This document shows, piece by piece, positions 57,627 through 59,620 of a stretch of 64,000 nucleotides of DNA. Numbering within the stretch: the first letter of the stretch is position 1; each line of letters opens with the position of its first letter. Source of the DNA: Williamsia deligens (GTDB taxonomy: Bacteria; Actinomycetota; Actinomycetes; Mycobacteriales; Mycobacteriaceae); the NCBI RefSeq assembly GCF_024171765.1, contig NZ_JAMTCI010000001.1, forward strand, positions 1,093,137 to 1,157,136. The letters are read 5' to 3'. The notes under the pieces are model-generated. The model was not told the origin of the DNA, did not search any database, and saw only the letters and a list, made by a program, of their open reading frames with translations. The position numbers and the translations under genes are program-made.

Positions 57627-58595
57627 GTGTTGCGCACCATCGCCGTGATCGTCCAGGAACCCGTCGCACTGTTCGAGTACGGCGTGATCCACGAGGTGTT
57701 CGGCCTCGACCGCACCGACGACGGTGTGCCCGCGTTCGACCTGCGGATCTGTTCTCCCACCCCGGGTGTCCCTCTGAGCAGCGGCAACGGCGCGTCGGTG
57801 ATCGCCCCACACCCGTTGTCGGCCGCGCTCGACGCCGACCTCGTCGCGATCCCCGGGGGCAGGACCGACATCGATCCGCCCGCCGAGGTGCTGGACACGC
57901 TCCGGACGGTGGTCGCCCGTGGCGGACGGTTGCTGTCGGTCTGTTCCGGCGCGTTCGCACTCGCTGCCACCGGACTGCTCGACGGGAAGCGCTGCACGAC
58001 GCACTGGCGGCACGGCGACCTCCTCGCCGAGCGGTTCCCCGCCGTCGAGGTCGGCACCGATGTCCTCTTCGTCGACGAGTACCCCGTCATCACCAGCGCG
58101 GGCACCGCGGCGGGCATCGATGCGTGCCTGTACGTCGTGCGCGAGGAGCACGGTCCCGTCGTGGCCAACGCCATCGCCCGGCGCATGGTGGTGCCACCTC
58201 ACCGCGATGGCGGCCAGCGACAGTTCGTCACCGCGCCCGTGCCCAAGTGCTCCGACGACGGCTTCGGCGCGATCCTCGTGTGGATGGTCGAGAACCTCGA
58301 CACCGACATCTCCGTCGACGACCTCGCCCGCCGCGCGCACATGTCGTCGCGGACGTTCGCCCGACGCTTCGTCGACGAGGTCGGCACCACTCCCCACAAG
58401 TGGCTCACCGAGCAGCGGGTGGCGCATGCGCGGACGCTTCTCGAGTCGACCGAGCTCGGCATCGAGCAGGTCGCGGCGCAGGTCGGTCTCGGCAGTGCGA
58501 CCCTGCTCCGCCATCACTTCACCGCCGCCGTCGGCCTGTCGCCCACGGCCTATCGCCGCCGCTTCGGCTGCGGGGTCACCGCCGACGCGAGCTGA
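57627..58595 (+). CDS. GlxA-family transcriptional regulator (DJ-1/PfpI + AraC HTH)
   Basis: A 322-aa protein: N-terminal DJ-1/PfpI-like domain (~1-190) with LVAIPGG and the conserved-cysteine elbow SVCSGAFALAATGLL, then an AraC-type double helix-turn-helix (DDLARRAHMSSRTFARRF, QVAAQVGLGSATLLRHHF). These sense small metabolites and activate catabolic genes. GTG 57627 was used. The two heptamer arrays lie immediately downstream. Confidence 0.9.
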   Translation: MLRTIAVIVQEPVALFEYGVIHEVFGLDRTDDGVPAFDLRICSPTPGVPLSSGNGASVIAPHPLSAALDADLVAIPGGRTDIDPPAEVLDTLRTVVARGGRLLSVCSGAFALAATGLLDGKRCTTHWRHGDLLAERFPAVEVGTDVLFVDEYPVITSAGTAAGIDACLYVVREEHGPVVANAIARRMVVPPHRDGGQRQFVTAPVPKCSDDGFGAILVWMVENLDTDISVDDLARRAHMSSRTFARRFVDEVGTTPHKWLTEQRVAHARTLLESTELGIEQVAAQVGLGSATLLRHHFTAAVGLSPTAYRRRFGCGVTADAS

Positions 58596-58642
58596 CTGAT
58601 CGCGCCGGGCGAGAACCCCGGCTGGGACAGGCCCGGGGGCAC

Positions 58643-58745
58643 TTCGCACGGTCTCGTGCCGTTCGCACGCCGAGGCGACGTTCGCACGTCGCCGACACCA
58701 TGCGAACGACGCGAGCAGATGCGAACGCACGCTGATCGTGCGAAT
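58643..58745. repeat. Symmetric heptamer array 1 (TTCGCAC x3 / TGCGAAY x3)
   Basis: Forward TTCGCAC at 58643-58649, 58662-58668 and 58681-58687, then inverted TGCGAAC at 58701-58707 and 58720-58726 and TGCGAAT at 58739-58745. Spacing is exactly 19 bases on each side and all three pairs share one dyad centre at 58694. Sequences between heptamers are not complementary, so it is not a simple stem. Confidence 0.9.
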
Positions 58746-58783
58746 GTGCCCGAGACCGCCCCTGTCATTGCTGGTTTCGGGTT

Positions 58784-58887
58784 TTCGCCCACCTCGTGCG
58801 CACCTCGCCACCGAGACCAGGGTTCGCCCGTCGAATGTCCCGGGCGAACCCGACGCACGGTGGCGAAACCTGGAAATCGCGGGCGAA
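58784..58887. repeat. Symmetric heptamer array 2 (TTCGCCC type)
   Basis: Forward TTCGCCC (58784-58790), CTCGCCA (58804-58810), TTCGCCC (58823-58829); inverted GGGCGAA (58842-58848), TGGCGAA (58861-58867), GGGCGAA (58881-58887). Spacings are 20,19 then 19,20 and all pairs centre on 58835.5. Same layout as array 1 with a variant heptamer. Array ends two bases before the TetR gene stop. Confidence 0.88.
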
Positions 58888-58888
58888 C

Positions 58889-59620
58889 CTAGCTGCGGGA
58901 CTCCCGGGCGGCGGCCTCGAAGCCGATGCAGAGGAGTTCGACGCCGCGGTCGAGGCGGCGACGCATGTCGGTGAGTCCCGTGCCGTAGCCCGCGCCGACG
59001 AGTTCGGCGATGCGCGAGGGCGGGTCGTGCGACGGGGTGCCGTCGAGCACCTCGTCGAGACCGCCACGCGCGGGGTCGTGACCGTCGCCGGTGGTGCGCA
59101 GAAGGTCGGCGGAGACCGCGGTCAGGGCGACGCCCTGGATGAAGCTCCACAACGTGAGGGTCATCTCGGCGGCACCCACGCGGTCGACGCCGAGTTGTGC
59201 GAAGCCGGCCATCATCCAGTCGAGGCAGTTCAGGCTGGCGGGTCCCATGCTGTGGCGCGGCGAGGAGTAGGCGAGCACCACCCACGGGTGCAGCGTGTAG
59301 AGGTTCCAGTCGGTGTCGGTCGCGACCTGGACGCACTCCCGCCAACTACGACCGCCGACCACCGCACGATCGTCTGTCGGGTCGTCGTCGGCGTGGTCGC
59401 CGTAGGGGTACGGGAACCGGGACCCGATCTCCTCGGTCATCGCCATGAGCAGCGCATCCTTGTCGGCGACGTGCCGGTACAGCGACATCGCGCCCACGCC
59501 GAGCCGCTCGGCGATCTTGCGCATGCTCAGCGCGTCGAAGCCCTCGGCGTCGGCGATGTCGATCGCGGCCGAGACGATCCCGGCACGGGTCAACCGTCCG
59601 CTCGGATCGCTGTCGGTCAC
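58889..59620 (-). CDS. TetR-family repressor next to an MFS exporter
   Basis: A 243-aa regulator with the TetR DNA-binding domain (IVSAAIDIADAEGFDALSM, RLGVGAMSLYRHVADKDAL) and a C-terminal TetR_C-type domain seen in drug-efflux repressors. GTG 59620 was used. It is divergent from the MFS gene; two copies of a GCGTAC-type palindrome fill the gap and probably bind it. Confidence 0.88.
   Translation of the reverse strand: MTDSDPSGRLTRAGIVSAAIDIADAEGFDALSMRKIAERLGVGAMSLYRHVADKDALLMAMTEEIGSRFPYPYGDHADDDPTDDRAVVGGRSWRECVQVATDTDWNLYTLHPWVVLAYSSPRHSMGPASLNCLDWMMAGFAQLGVDRVGAAEMTLTLWSFIQGVALTAVSADLLRTTGDGHDPARGGLDEVLDGTPSHDPPSRIAELVGAGYGTGLTDMRRRLDRGVELLCIGFEAAARESRS

Follow-up and report, generated by a model that had tools for sequence, protein, structure and literature searches.

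What are two phased, dyad-symmetric arrays of short repeats doing in the gap between two regulator genes of Williamsia deligens, and does a particular protein belong to them? We addressed this question for a 64,000-nucleotide stretch of the genome (the window), in which array 1 (type 1; 58643..58745) consists of three TTCGCAC units and three inverted TGCGAAY units at 19-bp steps, and array 2 (type 2; 58784..58887) lies just beyond it, neither being assigned to a strand. We conclude, with a probability of roughly 60%, that the arrays are dispersed, non-coding copies of a family resembling repetitive extragenic palindromic (REP) sequences, and that their partner is a protein with AbiEi-like and Vsr/EDxHD-type parts that would bind, cut and mobilise them. 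This reading is based on the findings that the arrays bordering the partner genes are built from the unit also seen in the dispersed arrays and that units and proteins vary in concert.

Association, specificity, phase and dispersal were each observed in the genomes. Two arrays of the W. deligens genome flank the gene for a 319-aa protein (P0001), which is located on the same contig as the window at a distance of ∼1.29 Mb. This partner gene lies directly upstream of tRNA-Tyr in all eight Williamsia genomes (G000 to G007), with arrays on both sides in seven of them and on one side in G004. When an automatic detector was used, the best P0001 homologue in each of six Williamsia genomes adjoined arrays (on both sides in four), and the array unit of those loci was found at 0 of 24 weaker homologue loci. 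Array-1 units were present at the partner locus in six of the eight genomes (on both sides in G007), and array-2 units accompanied a diverged protein in the remaining two. The diverged proteins, from G002 and G006, are 91% identical to each other and 44-46% identical to P0001 and other type-1 proteins, and their genes have type-2 arrays (TTCGCCC/TGGCGA) on both sides. The arrays found upstream of the type-2 gene in G002 (L077) and G006 (L102) can be aligned with array 2 of the window, and the match extends to the middle TCGCCA/TGGCGA pair. The window holds one copy of each of the two unit types found at the Williamsia nuclease locus.

The partner protein is a fusion of an AbiEi-antitoxin-like DNA-binding part and a Vsr/EDxHD-type (PD-(D/E)XK-like) nuclease domain. 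The PADLOC AbiEi model matched 52 of 52 homologues and Pfam AbiEi_4 matched 27 of 52 at E 0.01, and fold comparison, using a structure predicted for the G006 orthologue, returned an AbiEi-like part and the Vsr/EDxHD catalytic-domain fold. P0001 itself had no Pfam match at E 0.001 and no NCBIfam match; a loose cut-off gave weak matches to DUF559 (E 0.11) and MTES_1575 (E 0.19). Six residues (E200, R204, D233, E243, D245 and K249) are invariant in the 52-sequence alignment, consistent with the predicted nuclease site. The W. deligens gene has a DUF520 (YajQ) gene on its side away from tRNA-Tyr, and the neighbours at this locus are DUF520/YajQ, tRNA-Tyr/Thr/Met, ribosomal protein L33 and a MaoC-type gene, with no AbiEii/DUF1814 nucleotidyltransferase toxin gene adjacent at this one locus.

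The pairing of nuclease and array extends well beyond Williamsia. Among 110 actinobacterial homologue loci without duplicates (30 loci and a further 80, the best 80 of 498 confirmed), 59 had phased repeats on both sides, and in 38 of these 59 a unit was common to the two sides, as compared with 97 of 3422 (2.8%) cross-locus pairs. The sharing of units between loci tracked protein identity (33 loci, minus one without phased 7-mers). In what we term class I, the spacing of 19-20 bp is conserved while the heptamers vary. Heptamer dyads occurred in 11 of the 30 loci, at a spacing of 19 only (17-23 tested), and in 6 of the further 80, which represent many actinobacterial genera, again at 19 only (12-30 tested). 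Twenty-five other loci of the W. deligens genome yielded two dyads, both TTCGCA arrays; these control loci had been chosen as partial motif matches and hence are not truly random, and shuffles and far regions served as controls as well. Direct 7-mers at a distance of 19 were found in 27 of 79 upstream and 27 of 79 downstream flanks versus 2 of 158 far regions, and at a distance of 20 in 13 and 14 of 79 versus 3 of 158 (L176 was omitted from the 80 because of runs of N, and TCCACAG repeats were excluded from the counts). A 19- or 20-bp phased 7-mer was thus present in some flank of 45 of the 79 loci. Six loci carry a second class (class II) of 21-22 bp tandem units, which, in the five loci looked at, have opposite orientations on either side of the gene. 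As a separate observation, the excluded heptamer TCCACAG, which we take to be DnaA-box-like, occurs 20-350 bp upstream of 67 of the 110 nuclease homologues (for example L103, L120 and L162) versus 2 of 110 downstream flanks (250-bp stretches), and may tie nuclease expression to replication.

Units from nuclease flanks are also dispersed through the genomes that carry them. The unit of Nakamurella silvestris gave 147/144 matches (control 0/0) and that of N. brasiliensis 36/26 (control 0/6), and the same search found no matches in two other genomes. With one mismatch allowed, the N. lactea unit gave 10/9 matches in the N. lactea genome and was absent from five others. In W. deligens, the class II unit (three mismatches allowed) gave 40/49 matches (control 0/0), with ∼23 sites beyond the nuclease, and the GAACCCGCG unit (two mismatches allowed) gave 6/5 (control 0/0), four at its nuclease and two exact copies elsewhere. 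A defined element of ∼70 bp, with a TTCC-like end, two units, two inverted units and a GGAA-like end, was recognizable at 19 of 20 N. silvestris sites.

Within Williamsia, the search among relatives for copies, positions and contexts that the original prediction had proposed bore out the existence of a family: the core TTCGCAC-N13-TGCGAA was present in all eight genomes, and reversed-pattern controls gave zero throughout the 41 genomes searched. Look-alikes of the core were found in 2 of 33 non-Williamsia genomes, at two places in one and one place in the other. Perfect, longer hairpins containing TTCGCAC...GTGCGAA occur in G021, another genus of the family (L036, L049), and are apparently unrelated. 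Because a core search with three mismatches was noisy (88/84 in the W. deligens genome versus 29/33 for the control), exact matches or matches to a sequence-only model (R1), built from those of the 37 collected arrays that have four or more units (35 arrays), were used instead. Array 1 was the best R1 match in its own genome (E 5.3e-21). With strands merged and adjacent arrays counted separately, there were 6 strong R1 sites in each of G000, G004, G005, G006 and G007, 4 in each of G001 and G002, and ∼17 in G003, and arms had from one to six units. The G003 genome (for example L056, L058, L059 and L062) has about three times more type-1 sites, longer arms and near-identical cores, which suggests recent amplification of its type-1 arrays. 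The arrays are found behind the 3′ ends of genes and in gaps where genes converge: of 20 regions, 2 of which took the array position from the R1 search, a codon-usage gene caller classed 10 as convergent, 7 as tandem, 3 as unclear and 0 as divergent, although these regions are not all independent since several are orthologous.

In the window, the two flanking genes are convergent, as had been noted, and encode a DJ-1/PfpI and AraC-type helix-turn-helix regulator of GlxA type (57627..58595, + strand) and a TetR-type regulator (58889..59620, − strand). All 12 predicted heptamers were found in place: TTCGCAC at 58643, 58662 and 58681, TGCGAAC at 58701 and 58720 and TGCGAAT at 58739 in array 1, and TTCGCCC at 58784, CTCGCCA at 58804, TTCGCCC at 58823, GGGCGAA at 58842, TGGCGAA at 58861 and GGGCGAA at 58881 in array 2. 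The description of array 2 as TTCGCCC-type holds for its outer and inner pairs but not for its middle pair, which is a different heptamer (TCGCCA/TGGCGA). The cores are GTTCGCAC-N12-ATGCGAAC (58680..58707) for array 1 and GTTCGCCC-N12-GGGCGAAC (58822..58849) for array 2. The pattern TTCGCNC-N11..13-TTCGCNC has two matches in the window, both within array 1, versus 0.08 expected, and 40 first-order resamplings of the window produced no heptamer dyad and no unit array. Chance symmetry was rejected on these grounds, together with the zero counts for reversed patterns.

Single-stranded arrays fold better than shuffled sequences (array 1, z −4.36 as RNA and −4.18 as DNA; array 2, z −3.06 and −4.13), which is due to the heptamers. 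The invariant heptamers are uninformative either way about selected single-strand pairing. The mirrored complementarity of the spacers was 0.426 versus a mean of 0.419 with swapped right halves in 35 type-1 arrays of the family, and 686 of 2000 swaps reached the observed value, in agreement with the earlier view that the spacers are not complementary; likewise, spacer complementarity in 19 N. silvestris elements was no better than in swapped halves. A single long hairpin or terminator was rejected, given that the heptamers fold, that the spacers lack covariation and that terminator-like hairpins adjoin the arrays behind ilvC.

The closest parallel is the system of REP sequences and REP-associated tyrosine transposases (RAYTs), to which the names REPtron, REPIN, BIME and TnpA-REP also belong. 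Two reports describe dispersed extragenic repeats that are specific to a genome and coevolve with a cognate gene, which does not move and has copies of these repeats on its flanks (PMC2817692, PMC8266576). The Williamsia gene is likewise flanked on both sides, G004 apart; cognate repeats are dispersed in the same genome, with Arthrobacter gandavensis as the one exception; and repeat and protein coevolve. However, RAYTs are related to IS200/IS605 (HuH) transposases and act on single-stranded REPs, whereas the gene flanked here encodes not a HuH Y1 transposase but an AbiEi-like and Vsr/EDxHD-like protein, and the element is an array of phased half-sites with spacers that lack selected single-strand pairing. 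Since organisation, coevolution and dispersal match REP/RAYT while the enzyme is unrelated and the spacers do not pair, we propose a convergent counterpart based on double-stranded DNA. A second parallel is AbiE, a type IV toxin-antitoxin system; AbiEi of S. agalactiae and Rv2827c of M. tuberculosis are described as having multiple inverted repeats of 23 bp before their own genes (PMC7319586). AbiE shares with the present case a fold-related DNA-binding protein with multiple inverted repeats beside its own gene, but its 23-bp repeats lie within a single promoter and its toxin is encoded by a gene of its own, in contrast to the fused nuclease, two-sided arrays and dispersed copies seen here. 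The predicted catalytic-domain fold resembles that of the EDxHD homing endonuclease I-Bth0305I and of Vsr/DUF559 nucleases, from which the present case differs in its phased arrays and AbiEi-like domain and in that no gene mobility was seen at the Williamsia locus.

These features suggest how the system might work. On each arm of the dyad, protomers would line up along the double-stranded DNA, with one bound to a heptamer every 19 bp. The nuclease would then nick or cut the DNA, either at the arrays or at targets between genes, and its repair or recombination would copy arrays into new intergenic sites; genes between two arrays could thereby be gained or lost. Of the natures originally suggested for the window arrays, two fit and have partial support, namely a multimeric protein binding site and a mobile or replicated extragenic element, and these may be sides of one thing; on the third, a nucleoprotein organiser, the results point neither way.

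Comparisons of orthologous gaps are consistent with such mobility. Behind ilvC, arrays are absent from G001 and G005, each of which has a single terminator-like hairpin; G003 also has a single hairpin and lacks a TTCGC-type array. In G007, a 21-bp phased array is enclosed by two 35-bp hairpins that are identical to each other and to the hairpin of G005. In G000, G002 and G006, the two enclosing hairpins are similar but diverged, and the arrays within them belong to more than one family; G004 has another 21-bp array. This arrangement fits insertion with terminator duplication, or later deletion between copies. In the G000 region (L221; G000:C1 near 3044400), two terminator-like hairpins enclose a type-1 array and, next to it, four 21-bp GCCGAGCGTGCCGAAAC units, so that several array families can gather in one intergenic gap. 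The GlxA-TetR gap itself differs between genomes: in G002 (L065 1493-3685, G002:C6) it contains type 2 and type 1 arrays, two genes, one of them weakly beta-lactamase-like, and then type 1 and type 2 arrays, whereas the gap in the window has arrays 1 and 2 without genes between them. Arrays also bracket a SUKH-type gene in G006 (L234, G006:C1), with other genes there in G000, and an FAD-oxidoreductase gene in G000 (L309, G000:C1:2493330-2494440). The setting of these two genes resembles that of the nuclease gene.

One alternative is that the arrays are operators only, by which the AbiEi-like domain represses its own gene, as AbiEi and Rv2827c do by way of 23-bp inverted repeats in tandem; dispersed copies would then belong to a regulon or be passive relics, and the nuclease domain would have some other role. 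The binding of AbiEi-type proteins to multiple inverted repeats before their own gene (PMC7319586) and the arrays upstream of the nuclease gene agree with this idea, but arrays also lie downstream of the gene, dispersed copies occur at 3′ ends and in none of 20 cases between divergent genes, and more than 100 matches per strand in one genome are many for a regulon. We regard it as unlikely. It is quite improbable that the repeats are of REP or MITE (miniature inverted-repeat transposable element) type and moved by an unrelated transposase encoded elsewhere, with the nuclease gene as a frequent passenger or target: REP-like copy numbers, the ∼70 bp element of N. silvestris and the bracketing of other genes by arrays would be expected, yet the units on the two sides of the nuclease gene match each other and track its sequence, which is unexpected for a passenger.

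Two further proposals rank lower still. AbiEi models from a phage-defence library match the nuclease family, as they would if the nuclease patrolled DNA and used the arrays as loading, decoy or exclusion sites; however, none of the tested neighbours of the W. deligens gene is a defence gene, and this model does not require unit-specific coevolution with dispersed copies, so we consider it very unlikely. Least probable, and with only slight odds in our estimation, is a role in RNA, either as terminators that work in both directions or as stabilisers of mRNA 3′ ends, between convergent genes: the arrays do lie behind stop codons and fold stably, but spacer complementarity is not above that of swapped halves, and the ilvC region has terminator-like hairpins beside its arrays.

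Several results weigh against our interpretation of a nuclease that mobilises its own arrays. At the partner locus, the gene of G004 is interrupted by an in-frame TAG with arrays on one side (L073, G004:C50), and in G007 only the C-terminal 135 aa of the nuclease are open, with arrays beside them (L068, G007:C3). G002 and G006 retain 4 and 6 strong type-1 arrays despite a type-2 gene at the locus, and thus arrays either persist after their nuclease is gone or have no strict requirement for it. The type-2 pair (support 100) formed a long branch beside the type-1 protein of G003 (support 87) in a quick tree, so the type-1 proteins are not one clade and type 2 looks derived; such a derivation would explain the leftover type-1 arrays in G002 and G006. 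The nuclease gene itself showed no mobility at the Williamsia locus. More broadly, 21 of the 59 two-sided loci lacked a shared phased repeat, 34 of 79 loci had a 19- or 20-bp phased 7-mer in neither flank, and the three matches to the Arthrobacter gandavensis unit all fell at its nuclease locus, with five other genomes giving none. Direct 7-mers at 21 bp showed no clear excess (11 and 14 of 79 near flanks versus 18 of 158 far regions), and the 21-bp class consequently rests on single loci and on class II dispersal in W. deligens. Exact terminator duplication is one case, for which later deletion in G001 and G005 is also possible. Comparison of the two flanks revealed no direct repeat above 10 bp for 20 class II sites and none above 8 bp for 20 N. 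silvestris sites, and plain target-site duplication was rejected.

No description of the nuclease-array pairing was found in the open-access literature of PMC, and within that scope the pairing appears to be a new means by which bacterial repeats spread or are maintained. In its widest form, the idea is that a widespread actinobacterial, AbiEi-guided, restriction-like nuclease breeds and moves its own phased binding arrays, as an independent REP/RAYT-like system, selfish or domesticated, that would act on double-stranded DNA, target gene 3′ ends and terminators and let genes between arrays be gained or lost; we put this forward tentatively, at somewhat less than even odds. To our knowledge, few dispersed bacterial repeats apart from REP/RAYT have an identified partner enzyme. 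Here the partner can be named from sequence alone, and many genera offer dozens of natural protein/unit pairs, so that recognition and mobilisation are directly testable. If true, the proposal would explain intergenic repeats in several high-GC genomes and would give a function to proteins resembling AbiEi and DUF559.
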